Of a stretch of DNA of 64,000 nt, positions 2,255 to 23,547 are shown piece by piece. Numbering within the stretch: the first letter of the stretch is position 1; every line of letters begins with the position of its first letter. The stretch comes from Falciphora oryzae. Taxonomy: Eukaryota; Ascomycota; Sordariomycetes; Magnaporthales; Magnaporthaceae. Location: positions 662,181-726,180 of the forward strand of contig JNVV01000004.1 of NCBI GenBank assembly GCA_000733355.1, read 5' to 3'. The notes under the pieces were generated by a model, which made no database searches, was not told the origin of the DNA, and was given only the letters and a program-made list of their open reading frames with translations. A program made the position numbers and the translations under genes.

Positions 2255-2477
2255 TGTTGGTAGGAGTGTTACTCCTGTAGGCTCGGAGATCTCCCAAAGG
2301 AAAGAACAATGATCTATAGATCTGGAAAGGTGTCTGTATTGATGCATGATGAGGAAGGAATCTAATTACAGGAAGGGGATCGCAAAATCCCCTTTTGTAG
2401 GCTCGTGGGAGCGCACGGCCCGTGGGCTGCAGGCCCACGAGGCGTGGAGATGCACGCGCTGCTAACGTAATCCAACA
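2255..2477 (-). repeat. 3' LTR of element A
   Basis: A 223-bp LTR, TGTTGG..CCAACA, nearly identical to 24646-24868; the differences are mostly transitions. It is flanked on the left by TGGTT. On the inner side lies a purine-rich tract on the minus strand (AAAGAAAGAATTGCTAG, 2478-2494), a plausible polypurine tract. Confidence 0.85.
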
Positions 2478-2578
2478 CTAGCAATTCTTTCTTTAGGCGC
2501 GTGCATCGGCCCTATGCCTATTTTCCGGATCCAAGGATTTTACAAAACTAATAAAAAACGAATTTGGATCCGGCCACT

Positions 2579-8808: not shown

Positions 8809-10298
8809 AAAATGCCAAAAGAAAGATCGCATGGAGTTGTAAAAGGGGTATTCCATAAGCTTGCGGCTTTACGAAACGTGGGGCTTTTCCAAATGCACGC
8901 GCTGCCACGTAATCCAATCTTATAGTCTTAGTGGCTTTGACTCAACCCACAAAAAGGGAACCCACCTCCGGTGGGTTGTGGCTCGCCAAGTGGTTTAGTC
9001 GCAAGTTACTGGCCCGTGCATTTGTACTGTGGGGCCACAGACTTTTTTTGGTTTGAGTTTAAGACCGTATGGTGATTTTCTGCCGTTGGTTTTGGAAACT
9101 TCCATACAAAACGAAAATATTAAAAAAAGCACTCCAAAATATCTTTATGAAAGCCGACTTTTGCTGATTTTAAACCATATGTTGGAAGTAAGCTCGAGAT
9201 TCCGCATTTAATGGCGTTTTTTTGTTTTTTTGCATTTCGATTATAAACATTTTTTTTAACCGCCTAGGTGCATTTTCGTTGGTTTTAGGAATCGCCTTTC
9301 CAGCGACCCCTATGCTAGATTTACCATTAATGATGTCCGCGGCCCCAAATTTGGAGTTGGGGATTTTTTAGCTATTAGCTCGCCCAGACAATTTGTTTTA
9401 TTTGCTTACAGCCATTTCTTAAAGCAAAAACCTTGCAGATGAGCAGGTTGATAATGCGCCTTTCCGCCAGGTCATTGCTGAATTGTACGAGTATATTTCA
9501 CGCGCATAGGATACCTTATTGCAAAAGCGGTTTTTAAAGGCTGTTATTACGTCTTTTTTAAATTAGGGGGCGCTAGCGCATCGGGAACCGCGTATTCCAA
9601 AGCCTGACCAGATCGAATGTATTTGGCGTATCGTTTACAAATTAGGGGATACAATCCTTATTGCTAAAACAGGATATGGCAAAAGCATTGTGTTCTAGGC
9701 CGTATTTGTTATTAGGAATAAGCATATTACTATTTAGATCGTTCCGTTTAGCAAGTTGGGGGACGAATAAGTAGAAGTGGTTGCAGGTTTCCCCTTCGCT
9801 AACCCCATCCTTATCGACCAAACCACACGTAAGGTATTCCATTTCCCAAATATAAATATAAGAAAAGATATATTAACATCCCTTTATAGGACGCAAACAT
9901 TTGGAACTACCAAAAAGCGACGTAATACATATATATTCTTTTCGGCCTTAAGCAAGCTACAAATTCTCGGTTCTTTTCCCTCCTCCGCCACCCCGAGTTC
10001 AGCTAGCATATGCCTTTTTGGCCATCGACGAGCTTTATACCGTCCATTAGTGGAAAGATTTCCGTACGTCCTACCCTAATTTGCATTTAATCCGAACCGC
10101 GATTTTTATAGCTATCCCATTTTTTGGGTGCATTGCTATATTAACCGAAGAAGCAGAGGATTTTGTCCTTTCCTATGCCGGTTTCCGTTAGCTCGGCCTA
10201 GGCGAGCATTAATTCCGAATTATCCGCACGTTTGTTAATAAGCCGGATATATTTATCGTTTTATAAGCTTTGGAAAGGAACAAGCTAAGCAACGATTA

Positions 10299-10728
10299 AC
10301 GTGGTTCACAAGCGAGTGGGCCACACAAGCGAGTGGGCCAGGTGCAAAATGCATATTAAACGGCGTTTTTTTTCAATTAAATAACTCGCTCAATTTACGC
10401 TTAAATTTTACCAAATTTGGGGGGGTTATATTTAACTAAATAGGGAATTGAATTTAATTTTCTTGGATTTTTACTATTACTCCTTTTGGGTGAGTTCGCA
10501 ACACTGTGTAATATACTGTGCAAAATATGCAACTAACCCTAAAGGGGTAATGATAAAAATCCAAGAAAATTAAATTAAATTCCCTATTTAGTTGAATATA
10601 ACCCCCCTAAATTTGGTAAAATTTAAGCGTAAATTGAGCGAGTTATTTAATTGAAAAAAAACGCCGTTTAATATGCATTTTGCACCTGGCCCACTCGCTT
10701 GTGTGGCCCACTCGCTTGTGAACCACGT
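10299..10728. mobile_element. MITE 1: 430-bp near-perfect hairpin, TA target duplication
   Basis: Bounded by ACGTGGTTCA and its complement TGAACCACGT, and flanked by TA (10297-10298 and 10729-10730). Almost the whole element is one inverted repeat of about 200-bp arms around a short asymmetric centre (about 10500-10540). Just inside each tip a 17-bp unit (CACAAGCGAGTGGGCCA) is repeated twice in tandem. It has no ORF. The TA duplication points to mobilisation by a Tc1/mariner/pogo-type transposase (inference). It interrupts the helicase frame. Confidence 0.9.
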
Positions 10729-11671
10729 TACTAGCCTTTGTTCTTTTTTTTAAGCCACGTCCGGCTATACAATTTGATTTAAAGCATCCCTAAAACTATT
10801 GTTTATATAGACAATAGGTTTAAGCTCGTGGCTGCCCGCCATGCTCTTTTCTAACACCTTACTTCCAAAGGAGTTGATAAGGCTATTGCAGTCCGCACCA
10901 TTGGCATTTACAATTCCTTTACCCCATTAACAGATTAACGCCTTTTGTATAACACGTTTAAACGCACCGATTCTCCTATCCGTATTATCCTAGCTACCGT
11001 ATTTTTAGGTATAGGAATGGATATTCCAAACGTAATGCGCGTAGTGCAATTTAGGGCACCGATTTTATTGGACGTATCAGATTTATTACAGCGGTTCGGC
11101 AGGGCGTCCCGATCTGATGTGGGGCAGGGTACCGCTTATTTTTTTGCCCCCTATTGGTATTTTAATACCTAGGGCATTGCGGTCCCTAAAAAGACGAAAC
11201 TTAAACGGGGCTTTAAAAAAACCCATATTCCTGCTTTATCCAGCAGTTTGCGCTTCGAGTTGGCAGAATTTGGTATAAATACAAATGCAGACGAATCACA
11301 GTTATTTGGTTCCGATTATTTACAAACGCGATTTTCCATTTTCGACGTGGAATTTAGCATGGCCGGGGGACATTTGTCCTCCATTACGAACGACGAAGTT
11401 AACGAAGAACTGGGCATTTTTTTAAGGAAATAACACAACCATTGGATTTAAAAAGATTAGCGCCGGCGCGCGAAGCTAAAGGCCGAACATCCCGAGATGT
11501 TTAAATTGGCTAATGCCAGGTGCTTTAGGTAGGAAATGCTCGATTTGCTATAAGAGGTGCAGCTGTTTAATATCCAGTATACATTTTGCTGTAACGCATG
11601 TTACTACGAACTTGGACGATTCCTTCCGGTAACAGCTATTGCGAAAAAATATAAAAGCGTATATAAGCATA

Positions 11672-12099
11672 ACGTGGTTCATCAATAAGTGACGCACCCT
11701 CACTAAGTGACGCACTTCAAATCCTATACTAAATGCCGTTTTTTTCGATTAAATAACTCGCTCAATTTAAACCTAAAATTAACTAAATTTCTACACGTTG
11801 CATTTAATGAAATATAGAATTTAATTTAATTTTCTTAGATCTTTATTATTACCCCTTTAAGGTTAGTTTGCAACACTGTATAATACACTGTGTAAAATAC
11901 GCAAATTAACTTAAAGGGGTAAGAATAAAAATCTAAGAAAATTAAATTAAATTCTATATTTCATTAAATGCAACGTGTAAAAATTTGGTTAATTTTGTGT
12001 TTAAATTGAGCGAGTTATTTAATCGAAAAAAACGGCATTTAGTATGGGATTTGAAGTGCGTCACTTAATGAGGGTGCGTCACTTACTAATGAACCACGT
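11672..12099. mobile_element. MITE 2: 428-bp hairpin related to MITE 1
   Basis: It has the same tips (ACGTGGTTCA..TGAACCACGT), TA flanks (11670-11671 and 12100-12101) and AT-rich arms (shared ATTAAATAACTCGCTCAATT and TTAATTTAATTTTCTT blocks) as MITE 1. Its tandem subterminal motif is different: AAGTGACGCAC occurs twice where MITE 1 has AAGCGAGTGGGCC. It is inserted near the 3' end of the helicase frame. Confidence 0.9.
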
Positions 12100-13839
12100 T
12101 ACCAAAAAATGGTTTATTTATAAAAAGTTGATGTTATTCGCCTCCGAATTCGCGATTTACATTATCGCTTTTAACGACGACCGATGGTTTGATTTCCCCG
12201 GCAAATGGATGCTGGAACCTGCTATCGCCGTAAAATTTAGTTTGTTTATTAAAACATTCCGTATAGCTATTCGGGATATTTACGACTTGTGCCGACGGGT
12301 ACCGGCTATCGGGGGGGATATATGCTAGCATTGGTTGGAGGTTTACGGCCAGCTATTGGTATAAAAATGCGAAGTTATTAAAGCTAGGGGCATGGTAGCA
12401 TACGCCGAATACCAGACCAACAAACGCAAAAAGATCGACGTTGGGGCTTTACAGCCTAAAAGGGCAACCGCAAAAGGGAAACGTACTTTAGTATTTCCAA
12501 AAAACCCCGAACCATCGGCCTTATTTAAAAGACGATGATTTTACCAGCGACTGTTGTATTTAGTGGGCCTTTATTTAAAAAGCGATTGTACGGCTTATCG
12601 AACTTTGTCCCAATCCTTATAAATTTAAGGGCTAGCCTAATTTCTATTCGTTTGCTCCATTATTTTCGTTTCCTTTTAAATAATATCCCCGGTCGCCCTC
12701 CCGATTTTCGATAATTATGTTAGCTACCCCCTTTTTGGCATTTGCTAGCCTTTATTGGGAAAAAATATTAGCGGGCCGCACGATGGTGCAGTTAAAAGCT
12801 TTTAGTTTGCTATTGTGCATGTATTTAATCCCGTTTGCGAATAATGCCGGGGCGTTAAATTCGGAATCTTGCTTCGCTTGGTTGTATTTGCTGCCCCATT
12901 TATTGTTAATAAGTAAATACGTATATTGCATAACGTTTTGTTTAGTAGACGCTACGGTATGTTTAGTATTATTATATTGGCCAAACGCAGATTTTAATGC
13001 TTTGCGTATTATTGCTCCCAAAGGTTTAAGGGCAGCGCAGTTTTTAAACGTAGCCCAGATGTCGTGGGTTGAGTTTTTGTTGTATTTGATGTTGAGAGAA
13101 AACGCTTTGTTAAGGTGTTTAATGGCGAGATCGATAGTTTTAAATCTATTGCTAGCCGTAGTGCAACGAATAAGGCTTAACCGAAGGATAGCTGTGCGGA
13201 ATGGCTCGTTTGTAACTTTTAGATGTATGAGCTAAGCTAGATATAGCATTTTTGGACCGTAGTTTTTAGTTTTGCACCTATAAAAAAAAGATAAGGAGGG
13301 GAATGTATTGTTGGAGGATACCGAAATCCCTTTATCGTATAGTTTCGTTAACAGTTTAAAGCAGCTGTATAGTTTGGAGGTACCGATTTTGTGACCGGAA
13401 AGGGATATTGACGGGATTGTTCGTGTTGGGGTTCCGTTTTATAATGGTAGATGCTGAAAACGTTTTTTTGTCGACTTTGGTTTAGAGGGATTTGATGTAT
13501 TTTGGGGAAGCGGAGGCAAACGCTTTTTATACGGCGGATGGGATAAGTTTTTACTTTTTAGGGAGTTTGCCATCCTTTTGGAGTACGTTTATGCTTATGG
13601 CAAAAACGCGTGTACGGTAGCTATTTTGGAGGAATCGAAGCGCGTGGTAAAACTTTGGTTTAGAATTAGATATTTTTTGATTACGGCCGAAGTTTAGGAT
13701 ATTGGTTTTAATTAAAGGATAAAACTCTTTCCAAACGTGGTGGATAAAATTGATTTGGACGTGGAAAAGGGTAGGGATTAGAAGGAGCTATTATTTGCGG
13801 TTAAAAGGTGTAGTACATTCGATGTTGGCGGATTGGATA

Positions 13840-14231
13840 TGTTGGAAGGGCAGCAAGAGGTCGCACGACAGGTAGAAGCACGGGCAAGGGGAATCCCCAA
13901 TGACTAGGGACTCCGGGACTGAGAGGCCCCGCCTCTCTGACACGGAGGGACCGGCAATGGGGATCACCGGTCATGAACGGTGATCACCGGTCATGCACGG
14001 AGATCACCGGTCATGCACGGAGGCGGTGCAAGTCGCAAGTCAGGCCCGGCACCGGGACTGGCCTTGGACGACCGCACCCCGCGGCTTCCGTGATTGGGAT
14101 ATATGTATCTAGAGGGCTCGCACGAGGAGCCCTTCCGTTGTTTCTAGAAGACAGACGACTTTTGGATACATATTGAATACCAGAAGCCTTCTCACCCCAA
14201 CCGTGTTGGTATACCGACAGTGCCACGAACA
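13840..14231. mobile_element. Solo LTR, TSD GGATA
   Basis: A 392-bp segment runs from TGTTGGAAGG to CACGAACA, flanked by GGATA at 13835-13839 and 14232-14236. It is far less AT-mutated than its surroundings. It contains a short tandem repeat (GATCACCGGTCATG, three copies around 13965-14015). Removing it with one GGATA rejoins the DUF6589-like frame. There is no internal region, so it is a solo LTR of an unidentified, probably Copia-type family. Confidence 0.85.
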
Positions 14232-14750
14232 GGATATGTTTGATAAAGGATGTTGTTTTTTAGTCGTTATGGAGTAGGATAAGGACGTTATTGTAGTTAA
14301 ATGTGCCGGGTTTGAGATTTAAAATCCTTTAGAAAAGTTGTTTATAAACCCGAAGAATACCGCCAAGCTCGCTTTCGTTTTTTATAATGGCTGGGGTTTG
14401 GATAATATAGGATTTTGGGGTGTTGATACGAGAGACGTTGGGGAATTGGCAAGTAGGAAATTTGTCGGTATGTGTGCTTTTAAAAAGGTGGTGCAGTATT
14501 TTATGCCGGAAAAGGTATTGGGAGCATATCGGTTTTGCAGTAGGAGGGGCTAATATATATGGGTTTCGGAGCTACTTTAATTTGAACGGCATTGTAGCAT
14601 GCTATTGTGATTGGGTATAGCGGACGATATCGGGGCTCCCGATGGCGAAGCAGGTGGTGATGTTTCGTATAACGTTTTTGCGGCCTTATTTAAGGTTTTG
14701 GATACGGTTTATAAAGTTGAAGTTGTTGTAGACAAATGTTAAGCTGGGGT

Positions 14751-15208
14751 TGTTACAATCAGGCTCTGCTCCTAGGGTAGGACACCTAAAGAAGGTGCTG
14801 AACAGTACACTTAACAGGGGTTGCTTCAGGGGAACTGGGAAACTGGTGACAAAAGTTTGGATTGCTTGCCCAAGGGGGTACCTTAGAATTAACTTAGGTT
14901 AACTAATGCCGAGGCCTCAATCAATAGCTATCTACTTGCTAAAAAACCTTCTCCTTATATACACGACCTATTTCCAACCAGTTTTAGCGTTATACCTGCT
15001 TAATGTAATATATTGTAATCACCCCCGATCTAACATATCATTTTAGCTAAAAGTGATATGTTTAAATCCGACATATCGTACTTATCGCCGGTTGGTGTTA
15101 CGTAACTCCACCTCCCCTAATTGCGGGGTTAAGGCTTCGCGCTAAGGTTTGGTCCCAGCCCTCCTATCCCCATACGTCGTCCCCACGCGTCGTGGTGTGG
15201 TCGTAACA
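14751..15208 (-). repeat. 3' LTR of Gypsy 2
   Basis: A 458-bp LTR paired with 21477-21934. The copies differ mainly by C/T and G/A transitions. It contains a CCTTATATACACGACC stretch, a possible TATA region, in both copies. Confidence 0.9.
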
Positions 15209-15922
15209 TCAGGTCCCCTCTTTTAAGCCAAATCCCTTTGGCCATATTTGATTTTTCCCTTCCCTTATCAATTGGTAAGTACTTTCTTTCCTTACCTCAC
15301 CCGTCTCCTCCTATCTTAACAAAATGTCTAATCGGGTACAAAAACGCAGGATTTCCAACGTCCGTTCGACAATTCGTTAAAACGTCCTTCTTTTTTCTAT
15401 TCTTCAATCCTCTTCCGATATACCTTCCTATTCCGCATACGAGGCCGTTAGCTTCGTATTTTGCCAAATATCGCAAAAGGACTTTTTTCGTTACGCGGAA
15501 TGCGTTCGCCTAAAACGCGCCCGTTGCGACGTCCTAAGGGTTTCGTCTAACCAGCTGCGCAAAATTGCAAAACAGCACTCCAAACTTGACGCTAAGCTCG
15601 CGGCGGCTAAAAGGTTTCGTCGAAAGGCTGAGGAGCTAATGCGTGCCGAAAGCGACCGTATTTAGCGGTTGCGTACGCAAAAGGATTTATGGTTTAAAAA
15701 AATGATGCGCGCGGTACGGCGCGGTATTAATAATGTTAAGGAATTGGAGCGAGTGGAGCGGGAAAAAGCAAAGTAGGAATCCCGTCAGGCTGCTTCGGAA
15801 GCCGGGCCTTCCGTTCCTGCTACCGCTTCCCCGGACTGGTCTTTTTTAAAGGTTAATCTTAATTTGGACCTGGGTGTTTTTTTTTAATCGGGTAAGTCGT
15901 AGAGTTCCTAACAACTTCCTTA

Positions 15923-15994
15923 GGTCTTATAGCACATTAGGTATGGCCTTAGCTTTTTCTGCCGAGGTTTCGGGTTCGAATCCCGGCAGGGCCG
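15923..15994 (+). tRNA. Degenerate tRNA-like sequence inside Gypsy 2
   Basis: 72 nt fold as a cloverleaf with canonical landmarks. The acceptor GGTCTTA/CAGGGCC pairs with two G-T and one A-C mismatch. T8-A9 are present, as are a D arm with A14, G18G19 and A21, and an anticodon stem TTAGC/GCCGA with one A-C mismatch and a 7-nt loop. The variable loop has 4 nt, the T arm is TCGGG-TTCGAAT-CCCGG, and the discriminator is G. The mismatches fit C-to-T or G-to-A changes of an original GGCCCTG acceptor and TTGGC stem, as RIP would make. The loop centre is TTT, but mutation makes the original isotype unreadable. It lies antisense to the downstream end of the pol region, so it is either a captured tRNA or the head of a tRNA-derived insertion. 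Confidence 0.6.
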
Positions 15995-18900
15995 TTACTA
16001 GGGAACCAATTATCGAATTTCGGTAGTTGGTTTTTTGGTATGTTTTTTTTTTTTGCTAACCTTTTAACAGGCGCTCCCGCTGGTACTCCGCTAGCGCTTT
16101 TTAACAGTTTCCAAGGTTTGTCGCTTTTTCCTACGTATTTTCCTCGTGGCCGTACCCTTTCCATTTGATTAGGTATTTTTTAAAGCGTCGCTTCGTGCGT
16201 TCGTCCAAAATTTTTTCGACCTCGTACTTTTGTTCTAAATCGACTTCCACTAACTCGCTGCTTTCCGTTCCAAACGGTATTGGTTCTAGCAAGGAAACGT
16301 AAAAAACTAAATGGATTTCTATAGTTAGGGGAAGTTATAATTCGTAATTAACGTTTAATACCACCTTTTTCACTTTAAACGGCCCAAGCTTTTTGTAATC
16401 CAGCTTGTTATTTGGTCGTTTCGTTTTAATATTGCGGCGCAAAAAATAAACGCTATCCCCTTTTTTAAAAATCGGTCCCTCGATCCTTTTTTTATTAGCT
16501 TATATAGCCATTCGTTATCGTAGCTTTTTAAGCTCTACCTGGAAATTTTTATGCAGCTTGGTAAGCTCCGTCACCTGGATTTCCGCTACTGGGGCGTGTG
16601 GTCCTGCCTTAGGTTCTCCGTACACCGTAGGTATATACCCGTAGTTTGCAAAAAACGGTATGGTTCCCGTACTTTCGTATTTTAAGCTGTTATACGCAAA
16701 CTGCGCTATAGGAAGCAGTTATACCCAATCCGTTTGTTTGTAGTTAACGTAATAGCGAAGGTACTATTCTATGGTTTGGTTCGTTCGTTCGGTTTGTCCG
16801 TTTATTTCCGGGTGGTACGCTATTAATAAAGCGTGCTCGGCTCCCAATTTGGATACGAGCGCGCGCCAAAACTTGCTTGTAAACAGCTTATCCCTGTCCG
16901 TAACGATATGCTCTAGCACTCCGTACTTTGCGATCACATGCCGGATAAAAACGTACGCCAACTTTATAGCGTTACTTGCCTTTTTATAAAGTAGAAACAA
17001 AGCGTATTTGGTAAGCTTATCTACCACTACTAGGATGCTATTATAACAAACGTTCGTTAGGGGCTCTTTTAACTTTGGTAGCTTAACGACGAAATTTATT
17101 ATAACATATTGCCATACCTTGCTAGGCGTTGGTAAAGGTTGCAATAACCCATAAGGCTTATATCGGCTGGCTTTATTTTTTGCGCAGCTTTTACAATTTT
17201 TAATTGCTTTTTATACTTCGGCTCGAATTCCGGTAAACCCGTGGTATTATCGTAACTTTTTCCATGTTTTAGTTACTCCCTAATGGCCATAGGCCAATTA
17301 CCCGTAAATTTGCTGGATCCTTTTAAAAGTCTATTCCTTTTATTTAGCTGTTTTTGCTAATACCCGCTATACCGGGACCAAAGATCCGTTTAAGCCCTAA
17401 GCGAGTATTACACGAGTTTCCTTTGGAATATTAACCTCGTGGTTTAATCGGCAACTAAAGGCGTCCGCCCGTCCGTTTTCCGATCCTTTACGGTATTCGA
17501 TCCGGATATTATAATCTTAAAGGAACTTACTCTACCGGATTTGCCGCTTATTTAAGTTTTTGCTAGTAGTAAAATGTAATAGGTTTTTATAATCTGTATG
17601 CATTATAATTTAATGCTTTGCTCCATATAAATAAAATTTCCATTCTTTTAATACCCTAATAATAGCGAGGAGCTTTTTATCATAAATCTGGTAATTTAAC
17701 TTAGGTCTATTAAGTTTTTGTAAAAAAAAGGCGCAAAAGTGCAGCTTTCTTTGCTCGTTTCTTTATCCGAATTATCCTCCGATTGCGAAATCTAACGCAT
17801 CGGTTTTTACCTCAAAAGGTTTATCTGGGTTTGGCATAGCTAAAACTGGTTTTTGCGAAACGGCTGTCCGCAATAGCTTAAAAGCTTTTTATTTTTGTTT
17901 CCCCCAATAAAACTGGGTGTTATTTTTGGTAAAATTCGTAAATGGTGCAGCCTTTTTGCTAAAATCGCGGATAAACCGTCGGTAGAAGTTTATAAACCCT
18001 AAAAAGCTTCGGACCTCCCTAACGTTCGTAGGTACAGGCTACTCCTTAACCTCGTGCACCTTTTTAAAGTCCATACGAACTTTTCTAGGTGTAATAACAA
18101 AACCTAGGAAAACGACCTCCTACGTATGCCATATACATTTTTTTAGGTTAACTAGGAGTTTAGCGTTTTACAACTTTTGCAGCATTTTATGCATATACTC
18201 CTTATATTTTTCCAATATTTCCGAAAAAATTAAGATATCGTCCAGGTATGCGAAAATAAAAATGTTGAAATATTTTCGCAATACGTGGTTAATTATCCGC
18301 TAAAATATAGCTAGCGCATTAGTAAGCCCGAAGGTTATTACTAAAAATTCGAAAACCCCGAATTTCGTCCGAAAAGCTGTTATCCATTCCTAACCCTTTT
18401 TAATCCGTAATAGGCTATAAGCTTTGCGTAGGTCTAAAGCCGTAAAATATTTGGCTTTGCTAAATTTGTCCCGTAATTCGTCGATAAAAAGCAAAGGATA
18501 TCGATCTTTAATGGTTACTTCGTTTAACGGTCGGTAGTCGATACATATCCGCTCCTTTCCGTTTTTTTTTAGTACGAATAATATCCCGTATCCAATAAAA
18601 AAGTTGGAAAGCCTGATAAATCCTTTTAGCAAATCCTCTTTTAATTGTTCCTTTAGCACTTCCTACTGTTTTTAGCTTAACTAATACAGTTTCTAATACT
18701 TAAGTTATATTTCTAATTTGAGCTTAATTTCGTGGTCGAATGGCCCATATTCCGGGAGTACTATTTCCAAATCTTTCCTAAACAATCTTTAGTACTGGAA
18801 ATACTTTTTTAGGACGTTCCGCATTCGTGCGACGAAATCTGCTCGTTTTTTAAAATCGACGTCGTTTGTAAATAGTTGCGATTCCGTCGATACCGATTGC

Positions 18901-19680
18901 TTAAGCTAACTGCCTTGTTTTGCCACCGTCGTAGTTGCCCTTTGTGGCTTCGTAAGTTTATTGTCCGGGGTTCGGGGTTGTTAAACCGTTACGGGGTTTT
19001 GTAAACTTCCCTATTAGATTTAGCCGGTAACCTAATCTATTTGTAGGTTGCTTTTTTTAAGTTAGGGGATACCCAAAATCACGTTTTCCCCTTTTATATC
19101 CATAATATCTAAAGTAACGCGGAAATTCTTCTTTTGGTATCGAAATTTAAAATAATTAATTTTTTTATCGATATAGCTATTATTAAATGTAACCGGTTTT
19201 CCTTCTACAATTTTTAGGCTATACGGCGTTTTTTTTTTTTTTACCGGAATGCCGTACCTCTTTGCTGCCTCCGGCGAAAAGTAATTGCTTTAGGCCCCGC
19301 TATCGATTATAGCGTTTAGCTTTTTTCCTTTATACCGTAATACTACTATTAAATGCTGGTATTAGTTAACGTTTGTTGCGGCTAAGGTTTTTGCTTATTA
19401 TTAAGGTCCATTCCGTGCCTTTGTGTTGGGTGGCCACTTTAGTTTTTTGTTTCGAAAGCCTTTCCTTTTCTTATGGATCGTTCGGCTTCGTGGCTCGCGT
19501 AGCCAGGCAGGCCTAATCGCATACGGCCTTCCGTCCAAACCCGGGCCTTTTCTTCCATATAAACCTTGCATTCGGGCTTTCCGCAGTTAAGGTATAATAG
19601 GAGCCCCGAAATGCATAGCATGGGGTAAAAAGGTAAGGGTGCGAAGGTCGCTTTAAATTGCGAATAGTCCACTTTAGTAA
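15995..19680 (-). pseudogene. Gypsy 2 pol remnant (protease/RT/RNase H/integrase/chromodomain)
   Basis: The RT block is clear at 18659-18390 (FVLKKNGKERICIDYRPLN, then KYFTALDLRKAYSLLRIKKG). Integrase is at 17144-16764 with TDRDKLFTSKFWRAL and AYHPEINGQTERTNQTIEQ; the first catalytic Asp region reads I-N-F-V, an Asp-to-Asn change. The chromodomain reads YEVEKILDE..KYLIKWKGYG..NTWEP near 16240-16110 once Gln/Trp-type stops are ignored. An upstream segment (19672-19439) has a Cys pair (CGKPECK) and precedes the protease region around 19320. It is inactive. Confidence 0.8.
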
Positions 19681-21427
19681 TCCTTTATTTAGGGAGCTGA
19701 TAATCCCTTTTTAGGTTTTTAATCGGCTTGCCGTTTTTTCTTTCGGGAAAAAAGTCGCTTTTCAGCTTTGCGGCTAGGTGCCATTCGCAGTAATCGTTTA
19801 CGCACTCGGCCCAAAAGAGCTCGTCGTGTTTTGCTGCCTCGACATCCACATTTAGGTGGTTTTGGTTATATGGTTCCGTGCTGCGTTTTCCTTTCGGGGG
19901 CATTCTTTCGTACGGAGCCCCGTAGTAGGTAATTTGCTGGTCGTCCCGAAACCAGTCCAAGGGCTTGCCGTCGTCGTTAAATGCTAGCTTTTCCCGCATA
20001 AGTCCTCCGATAAGCTTGGGCTGGTCCCAAAACTATTGGTCCGATTCCGAAAATCCGAGCGAAATATAAGCCTTATTAATATCGAATGTGTTATACATTC
20101 GTTGCTTTGTGGTTGGAAATAAACCCTCGGCTTTTTTTCGTTTTTTAGCCATATGGGTTTAACCTAATAGCTCGTTATCGATTTCGTTATCGGTATCGTA
20201 GGTAAATTCGGTAACCCACGTAGCGGTGTTATCTTTTTCCTCGGATTCCGTAAATCCGGTAGCGAGAACTTATTTTCCCTCGCTGTCGTATTCGATCCTG
20301 GTGGGACCTCCATTAAAGATCGTCCGGATCCGTCGCGTCGCGGCTACCCGCCTTTTGGGGTACCAGCCGGTCGCGTCCTTGTCAAACTAGTGCGTCGCGT
20401 ACGAGTCCTCGCAGCAATAGGTCCAACTAAAAGCTGCTCCGGGGCACAGGCTATTTTCCGCCTAGGCGTTTCCCCGTTAGGTGACTGCCGCCTGCCGCTG
20501 CGGGCAATTTCGTTTAATATGGCCTTTTTAACCACATTTAAAGCATTTCCCGTCCTTAAGGTCCTGCCTTTTCTTGTTGCTCTGCCTTTACAAATGGGTA
20601 GCTCCAGCGCTAAAGTTTATAGGTCCAAAGTGTATGCTATAAGCCGTGTTTAGCTGCTGCTTGTCTTTTTTGTGGTTGTTTTTATTATTTACCACCTTAG
20701 TTAGCTAACCCTTTTTTTTAAATCGTCGTTCGTACAGCTTGTCGCTAATACGGACGGCCATTTGGATATAATCCGGGAAGTCCTTCGGTCGGTCCGTTTT
20801 AAAAAGCTCGTCCTTTATATCCTCGCGGAAACCCCCGTAAAAGTGCGCCATTTTGGTCTGGTCGGTCCAATCGAGCTTGGTTACGAAGCGTTGGAACTTT
20901 AAAGCGTACACAAAAGCTGGCCCTTTTTATCGAAGGCTGAAAATTTCTTTTTCCGCAACCAGTCGCTCGTCGACCTAGCCGAAAACCTTGCCGATTTCTT
21001 TTTCGAATCTTTCGAAGCTAGCAAACACAATTTATATTTGCTCTTTGGATTCCACGCCTTAAAGGTAGTCCGCCCACGTAAGCTGGAACCAATCTTTAGC
21101 TTTTTTTCCGAAACGTATAGCGGCGTAAGCCACCTTTTTTTTTCGGTACCGAAATGAGCCTCGTAAAACGAAAAGTAGGCTTTGCATTCGGTAAAAAAAA
21201 ATCCGAAATTTGCCCGTTTCTCCGTCGTAAATTTCAGGAAATAGGAACTTGTATGCCTTTATCGCAATGTCCAGTTTGCTTTGGACCGCAGCCAATTAAG
21301 CCTTAGCCTTAGTAAGGTCCTTTACGAGCACTCGGAAAAGGTCGAAGGAAATGTCCTCGTCGTACTTCTTCCCTTCGTATTCGACGGTGGAGGGCTGCTC
21401 CGTTTGCTTGGAACCGGACGCCGACAT
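19681..21427 (-). pseudogene. Gypsy 2 gag remnant
   Basis: It starts with ATG at 21427, 50 bp from the 5' LTR. The N-terminal part covers 21427-21059 (LDIAIKAYKFLFPEIYDG), the capsid-like part includes KMAHFYGGFREDIKDELF at about 20860-20800, and an intact CCHC zinc knuckle (CFKCG-x-KGHIKRNC) lies at about 20552-20505. A further segment (19999-19685) has a C-x4-C-x2-H arrangement followed by FFPE, a module I associate with fungal Gypsy gag ends. Scattered stops inactivate it. Confidence 0.75.
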
Positions 21428-21476
21428 TTTGTCGTACTGTTCGCCCTCGGTAGGTGCTAAACAGGATCAGTCAAAA

Positions 21477-21934
21477 TGTTACAATTAGGCTCTGCTCCTA
21501 AGGTAGGATACCTAAAGAGGGTGCTAAACAGTACACTTAACAGGGGTTGCTTTAAGGGAACTGGGAAACTGGTAACAAAAGTCTGGATTGCTTACCCAAA
21601 GGGGTACTTTAGAGCTAACTTAGGTTGATTGATGCCGAGGCCTCAATCAATAGCTATCTACCTGCTGGAAAACCTTTTCCTTATATACACGACCCATTTC
21701 CAGCTAATTCTAACGTTATGCCTGCTTAATGTGATATATTGTGATTACCCCCGATCCAACATATCATTTTAGTTAAAAGTGATATGTTTAAATCCGATAT
21801 ATCGTACTTATCGCCGGTTGGTGTTACGTAACTCCACCTCCTCTAATTGCGGGGTTAAAGCTTCGCGCTAGGGTTTGGTCCCAGCCCTCCTGTCCCTATG
21901 CGTCGTCCCTACGCGTCGTGGTGTGGTCGTAACA
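21477..21934 (-). repeat. 5' LTR of Gypsy 2
   Basis: A 458-bp partner of 14751-15208, followed by GGGGT. The gag start lies 50 bp away on the minus strand. Confidence 0.9.
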
Positions 21935-23384
21935 GGGGTTAAGGGCAATACATTGGATATTTTTTTATAAAGGAAGGCATATTAATATAAAAGATAAAAT
22001 CGGTTATTATTTAGTTGGTAGACGTATTATAACCCTGTTAACTATGGAAGTTATTTGGTTTTTGGTAATTTTGTAAAAGGAGTTGACCCCGAATTTTAAA
22101 AGGACATTTATCACCCGTTACGGAACGCTACTGTTTATTTGATAAATCCTAAGGACCCGCTTTAAATAGTTGCTTTTTTTAGGCGCCCGCGCGTGTGCTA
22201 TAATATTTGCAATTATATAACGGGGGCTAAGGTTTGTGGCTGTAGTTATTGCTGCCTTTTTAAGTGTTGCTGCCTTTTTAGGTGTCGTTGCCCCTTTAGG
22301 GGTCGCTGCCATTTTAGGGGTCGCCGCCCCACCTGGGGTAACTGTCCCTTTTGGGGTCGCCGCCTTTTTAAATGTAAGTTTGGGGGTTTAACGGTTGGGG
22401 TTATAAAAGTCCTAGTTGGTTCGGGTATTAACTATGACAGTAGTAAGCAATTGGTTAAGTAGGGGCGTATGTTTTTAAAAGCGGGAGTTGCATTGCAACA
22501 GTTGGTTTTGTACCTAGGAAACGTCGCAAATGTTTTTGGCGGTGCAAGGGGCGTTTCTTTTACTAAATTATGCCGGGTTAAAATTGTCGAACGGGTTGAA
22601 CGCGGCAAAGGCGTTAAGTTTTCGGCGGATAGAGGCGTAGTACGTATTTGGAGGCGCGCTTTCGCCGTCGAGCAGGATTTGGATGCTAGTTTCGGAAAAA
22701 GCATGTTGAACGTCGGGGTTTTGCAAATAGGAGCGGAGTTAGGAAAGGCGAGGTCCATTGCGTTTGCTATCGGTGCGACGTTGATACGCTTATTGTTTGA
22801 AGAATTTGGGGAACGAAGATTATGGCTTTAAATTGCGCTAAAATTGCAGCGTTTTTTGTACCAGGTTATAGGTTGGGGAGTCGGGCTTTTTTAGGGGGTC
22901 GGAATCGTTGTTAAATGGATAGGAGTGGCGGGGCTTTTAGAGGGACGCGGGGGCCTTTAAACGGCGAGCTGTTTGTAAGCGGGAATTCCGCGCCGCTAAA
23001 GGTGAATCGAAAGTAGCCGGCCGAGGCGTTAAGTAGGGGAAAAGGTTCGAAGGCGTATTATTGCCGTCGCTTTCGTCGTTGGAGTCGGAGTCGGAGTTGG
23101 AGTCGGCCGGTGGGAGAGGTGGGGATGTTGTTAAAATCGTAAGATCCGATGTGGGAAACGTGGCATTAGGAGCCGGCTGCGGCGGTTGATTGGAAAGGAA
23201 AGCCGGTAATGAAAAAAGAAAAGAAGGAGACGATATGGCGATAACGCCCAAAATTTCGATTTTCGTAGGCGCAAATTTTAAATAGAGACCGGTAGGTACG
23301 AATTGCGTAATGTGGTGGAGGAAAGGAGAATGGTAATTTTGGTAGATTGGAGGCTGGGTGGGATTTTAGAATCGCATGCCATTT

Positions 23385-23525
23385 TTCGCACTATGCGACC
23401 TTAGACCAGATGGCGGCGAAGTTGTGTGGGGATTGTGATTGGCTGAATTAATGATGTGGCTGGATGTGGAGAAAAAGTGATTTGTGTGACTTTCGCCCCT
23501 CATCTGGTCTGAGCCACTGAGACTA
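23385..23525. repeat. Imperfect inverted repeat at the right end of X
   Basis: TTAGACCAGATGGCGGCGAA at about 23402-23421 is mirrored by the complement of CAGACCAGATGAGGGGCGAA at about 23488-23507. This places a roughly 20-bp inverted repeat just inside the right tip of X. It may be a subterminal binding site of X or an independent 0.14-kb MITE that ends at the same point. Confidence 0.45.
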
Positions 23526-23547
23526 CCAATCCTAGCAGTTCTTTTTT

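Follow-up and report, generated by a model that had tools for sequence, protein, structure and literature searches.

The described transposons closest to the element reported here belong to the Academ superfamily, of which AcademH is a lineage, reportedly set out by Kojima in 2020. Academ is reported to carry a RecQ helicase (PMC3627910), target-site duplications measure 9 or 10 bp in AcademH and 3 or 4 bp in AcademX (PMC10045372), and AcademH is present in Basidiomycota, Ascomycota, and Mucoromycota (PMC10799480). KolobokH is described as fungal and equipped with a RecQ helicase, with TTAA as the Kolobok duplication (PMC9587614), and RecQ repeats degraded by repeat-induced point mutation (RIP) have been described near fungal chromosome ends (PMC4522978, PMC3017866). 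Here we describe Element X, which occupies positions 8923-23525 of a 64,000-nucleotide stretch of Falciphora oryzae DNA, hereafter the window (C4:662181-726180 in a genome of 50.18 Mb and 123 contigs). A reading of the window made from its letters alone (the sequence-only reading) had proposed that no described class unites this element's gene pair, a RecQ-like helicase and a DUF6589-like protein, with a 9-bp duplication. Judged by the traits open to comparison, that proposal was wrong, because the AcademH and Academ reports match Element X in duplication, RecQ helicase, and fungal host (PMC10045372, PMC3627910, PMC10799480). Element X is probably a RIP-killed copy of an AcademH-type family of DNA transposons with terminal inverted repeats (TIRs), most likely a new AcademH-like family in an ascomycete. 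We hold the AcademH label with good confidence; it rests on the fungal host, the type of helicase, and the length of the duplication rather than on a match between transposases.

Comparison among copies confirmed that Element X is real and precisely bounded, a single copy of a TIR transposon. The consensus TAGTCT[T/C]AGTGGCT stands at both ends, and the limits and 14-bp TIRs had been read from the window right almost to the base. The ends, genes, and flanking duplications are:

8914-8922, left target-site duplication CCAATCTTA (flank ccaatctta)
8923-8936, plus strand, left TIR TAGTCTTAGTGGCT, at a boundary that matches in 10 copies
9312-12484, plus strand, RecQ-type helicase gene with one intron (~9834-9889), split by two later insertions (Pfam PF00270 and PF00271, tblastn pieces)
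12650-23236, minus strand, DUF6589 gene encoding a predicted DDE transposase, split by two later insertions (PF20231, tblastn, structure of a homologue)
23512-23525, minus strand, right TIR, reverse complement TAGTCTCAGTGGCT, read from aligned copies
23526-23534, right target-site duplication CCAATCCTA (flank ccaatccta)

The same boundaries and TAGTCT ends are kept in 10 two-ended copies found in the genome (the window copy, L009, L011, L014, L015, L017, L018, L020, L023, and L024), and in none of them are the homologous genes enclosed by different limits. L023 and L024 form a second subfamily, with ~68% DNA identity to X, that retains the X boundaries. A DNA query from window positions 13000-14000 gave 41 genome matches, 18 of which (the window included) are DUF6589 DNA and 23 only an inserted long terminal repeat (LTR); 16 stretches were fetched around the DUF6589 matches. 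The TIR pattern occurs at 49 + 53 places across the genome, compared with 7 + 11 for a reversed control (100 of the 102 places were listed). Because the genome searches score best candidates only, copy numbers given here are lower bounds.

The two flanks of Element X, the 9-bp duplication read from the window, are identical at 8 of 9 positions, and homologous ends elsewhere carry such duplications as well. Among the 10 two-ended copies, the duplication is exact in six and 8/9 in the window copy; L015 and L020 have none, and L017 has an imperfect 8-bp repeat only. Of nine convergent end-pairs picked from a search with the TIR alone, seven have exact 9/9 duplications, one has 8/9, and one has none; 72 mismatched pairings of these ends, used as a control, reached at most 6/9. 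The duplication is also exact at L033 (found by a scan that itself demanded similar flanks), at the C35 end-pair, and at C33 (where it lies in a CGA repeat), and is 8/9 at C41; at C80, a 241-bp TIR pair lacks one. Genome-wide, 19 of 24 end-pairs agree at 8 or more of the 9 positions (16 exact), and all three 8/9 duplications differ by a single C/T change of the RIP type. End-pairs were chosen by hand from the copy alignment and the TIR list; scoring left out copies with one end or a lost end (L010, L012, L013, L019, and L021/L022) and solitary TIRs (e.g., C30:269847, C52:266268, C82:6201, C85:54299, and C51:5142). The similar-flank scan covered five loci and produced an acceptable end-pair at one. 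Of the other four, L030 (C59) and L029 (C35) were settled from ends lying beyond the fetched stretches, and L031 and L032 had no acceptable pair in the stretches fetched. The site without the element is preserved as well. L017 contains uninterrupted DNA that matches the joined X flanks along their entire 249 bases (85.6%). The joined flanks also match window positions 2450-2510 (62 columns, 85%), reproducing the junction that the sequence-only reading had placed at 2446-2510.

The helicase gene was correctly read as RecQ-like. In the window copy, whose aligned pieces hold 24 stops (tblastn), Helicase_C passes its Pfam cut-off and DEAD, with 20.9 bits of the required 26, does not, and the intact helicase of L023 (771 aa, one intron in the gene model) clears both cut-offs. 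All 37 matches of the L023 protein among PDB sequences bear RecQ-family or DNA-helicase names, WRN first (the others being RecQ, RECQ1, RECQ4, RECQ5, BLM, and "ATP-dependent DNA helicase"). The convergent arrangement with DUF6589 is a property of the family. We grouped 42 DUF6589 loci and 41 RecQ loci genome-wide and observed a convergent RecQ gene within 20 kb at 38 of the 42, so the two genes do co-occur elsewhere. They lie within 1.31 kb of each other at 33 loci; the other five pairs, on C16, C35, C72, and C69 (two pairs sharing one RecQ locus), are spaced 1.7 to 16 kb. The grouping left C30:357725, C30:487769, C36:134764, and C93:11024 without a RecQ partner, with the exception that the stretch fetched at C93 (L031) does hold a convergent RecQ piece. 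Among six diverged DUF6589 loci (five fetched ones and L027), RecQ is present in five and was not found within L029.

Both genes have been maintained as proteins. L023 is an uninterrupted copy with both frames open, and its comparison with the L011 subfamily gave ratios of nonsynonymous to synonymous substitution (dN/dS) of 0.154 over 760 codons of RecQ, where 9 stops were passed over, and of 0.138 over 942 codons of DUF6589; when L023 was set against L020 and L009, both damaged by RIP, values were 0.128-0.176. These values are rough because dS exceeds 1, but they show purifying selection on both genes. Further copies of the L023 subfamily contain stops (L034/L035 on C39, L050/L051 on C23, L038/L039 on C27, L060 on C82, L058 on C30, and L059 on C52) and match the second RecQ exon at 76-83% identity; the C27 copy has ends and no duplication. 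Between L023 and L024, both 6,084 bp, there are 149 differences. On a single strand, 136 of these are changes from G to A, and the base preceding the G-to-A sites is T in 67 cases and A in 63, which makes CpA and CpT about equally frequent on the other strand. We read these differences as the mark of RIP acting on one strand, with a sequence context unlike the strong CpA preference of RIP in Neurospora. This family, with many copies, an uninterrupted open-frame copy, and its RIP-marked twin, offers an unusually clean set for studying the role of RecQ in transposition.

Several observations converge on the DUF6589 protein as the candidate transposase, the role for which the sequence-only reading had put it forward: this role fits the copies, the predicted structure, the acidic residues that are conserved, and the selection on the gene. 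In the window copy, PF20231 is recognized in three pieces, two above the Pfam cut-off and one below, with 25 stops in the aligned pieces (tblastn); the L023 protein is ~950 aa long, with one intron in the gene model and an open frame. An initial model of 874 aa, built from 14 sequences, reached a predicted local distance difference test score (pLDDT) of only 57.7, which is poor. A homologue, when modeled, was predicted to adopt an RNase-H/DDE fold with a helical insertion, an RNase-H fold being what the sequence-only reading had suggested looking for, and the top 21 rows of its structural comparison are Hermes, P element, ISCth4, RAG1 or RAG-like, and Transib. Mutator-like elements (MULEs) and piggyBac are not among the 50 rows listed by VIA-align, which carries no weight against either. 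A search of solved-structure sequences with the DUF6589 profile gave no significant match, the one match, to an ATP synthase subunit, having an E value of 1.5. Acidic residues D, D, and E are conserved in the aligned homologues, and the candidates for the catalytic glutamate in P0011 are E382 (22 of 23, with one D) and E427 (23 of 23). We favor E427 (E793 in the L023 protein) as the putative catalytic residue because range arithmetic, counting back from matched C-terminal limits rather than aligning residues, puts it at or near the glutamates that are catalytic in Hermes, P element, and RAG1. The DUF6589 protein is a predicted DDE transposase; a Pfam family with no assigned function thereby becomes a candidate DDE transposase family open to testing, and fungal proteins annotated as DUF6589 can be read as likely transposon genes.

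The alignment behind these statements (A2) comprises 24 of 28 homologous proteins, and Pfam reported PF20231 in all 24, with two other weak matches in one member each. Named relatives come from Annulohypoxylon, Xylaria, Lasiosphaeria, Diatrype, Achaetomium, Chaetomium, Daldinia, and others. The four omitted proteins, P0018-P0021 (320-343 aa), come from two Hypoxylon species, Jackrogersella, and Daldinia and cover 23-32% of the transposase profile. In P0018, the only one of them aligned, the match is confined to the N-terminal part and the catalytic domain is missing; the four may be either truncated gene models or domesticated pieces. Among further frames of L023 and L011, Pfam found no family for the first and third, and the L011 stretch is probably misframed.

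From these observations a transposition cycle can be sketched. The DUF6589 protein would bind, pair, and cut the TAGTCT ends (TAGTCTCAGTGGCTC) and would join them to the two target strands with a 9-bp stagger; repair of the resulting gaps would then leave the 9-bp duplication. The co-inherited RecQ-type helicase would serve as a helper, most likely unwinding or processing the ends or acting in repair of the donor-site gap.

The window copy was later interrupted by four insertions:

10299-10728, palindromic miniature inverted-repeat transposable element (MITE) in the helicase gene, TIR ACGTGG..CCACGT, TA-flanked; site empty in other copies
11672-12099, second MITE of the same kind in the helicase gene, TA-flanked; read from the window and copy comparison
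13840-14231, solo LTR (TGTT..AACA) in the DUF6589 gene, 5-bp duplication GGATA; L009 and L011 lack it
14751-21934, LTR retrotransposon in the DUF6589 gene, 458-bp LTRs, 5-bp duplication GGGGT; site empty in other copies

Subtracting these inserts leaves ~6,155 bp, close to the 6.15 kb first estimated and within the range of uninterrupted natural copies (6,084-6,159 bp; L009, L014, and L017 measure 6,152, 6,155, and 6,159 bp).

A larger relative also exists. At C35:62164-89625 (L063, L064, L065, and L029), a TIR pair 27.5 kb apart is flanked by an exact 9-bp duplication, tcttccaag, and encloses an open DUF6589 frame along with pieces of RecQ. Also inside are a nested transposon, which bears DDE_Tnp_4 and Myb/SANT-like domains and which we read as Harbinger-like, and ~6 kb with open frames. 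In this 6-kb piece, located between RecQ and DUF6589, one frame is SNF2-like (E = 5.7e-4, below the Pfam cut-off). The piece recurs nearly whole once, at 91% identity, at C30:357719-368263 (L066 and L067), abutting a DUF6589 remnant, and homology there stops 12 bases from a TIR-like sequence. No RecQ was seen beside this C30 copy. The recurrence suggests extra genes, possibly cargo, carried in the element; the alternative is that C35 and C30 share the piece through segmental duplication. Parts of both places read N. New here are this 27.5-kb relative, whose TIRs enclose additional open frames, and the evidence for DUF6589 as a DDE transposase. Three elements, at C16:215673-217204, C16:450412-456420, and C69:39033-44911 (L054), have TAGTCTCAGAGGCTC-type ends and are flanked by exact 9-bp duplications; the two on C16 were read at their ends only. 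L054 looks non-autonomous because RecQ and DUF6589 were not detected in it; its only match is to reverse transcriptase, and it perhaps holds a nested insert resembling a long interspersed nuclear element. Within the window itself, positions 25001-46000 form a GC-rich block between two repeat islands (0.51-0.60 GC per kb versus 0.36-0.56 on both sides) that contains the longest open frames.

We considered whether another origin explains these features better. It is unlikely that DUF6589 elements form a separate, undescribed DDE superfamily that acquired RecQ and the 9-bp duplications independently of Academ. In line with such an origin, our literature search found no relevant paper on DUF6589 or PF20231, the protein lacks a significant sequence match to a solved structure, and RecQ has been recruited more than once, for example by KolobokH (PMC9587614). 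However, AcademH as reported agrees with these elements in host, in kind of helicase, and in the length of the duplication. The literature search also found nothing on Academ together with XPG. We are correspondingly doubtful of the fuller version, in which DUF6589 is its own DDE superfamily across Ascomycota and Basidiomycota, with a dedicated RecQ and several kb of extra genes between helicase and transposase. KolobokH, the second lineage of RecQ-bearing DNA transposons described from fungi, shares the RecQ helicase and fungal host (PMC9587614), but X has 9-bp duplications without TTAA and a helicase encoded as a separate gene on the opposite strand; it is very improbable as the identity of X, and we rejected it on the wrong duplication. 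Finally, RIP-degraded RecQ repeats are known near fungal chromosome ends (PMC4522978, PMC3017866), but the TIRs, fixed boundaries, 9-bp duplications, and empty site leave a negligible chance that X is no transposon but a subtelomeric or segmental repeat whose RecQ gene is linked to telomeres, and that reading was rejected.

Set against known systems, the X family resembles several of them in part. The hAT (Hermes) and P element transposases, the best structural matches, resemble the DUF6589 protein in its predicted fold, that of RNase H with an inserted helical segment. Their duplications are usually 8 bp, whereas those of X are 9 bp, and we know of no RecQ gene in either group. MuDR/MULE duplications are ~9 bp, like those of X; unlike these elements, X has short TIRs, and Pfam reported no MULE domain in the window DUF6589 protein or the aligned homologues, and on these grounds we set a MULE identity aside as unlikely. 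KolobokH, as described, is likewise a fungal DNA transposon with a RecQ helicase, and differs in its 4-bp TTAA duplication from the 9 bp of varied sequence at X. AcademH, compared by described traits rather than by arrangement, termini, or transposase sequence, and linked to DUF6589 in no paper that we found, has in common with the X family a DDD/E transposase (on the X side by prediction only, from the fold and the conserved D, D, and E), an element-encoded helicase (RecQ in Academ), duplications of 9 or 10 bp, and hosts among Ascomycota and Basidiomycota.

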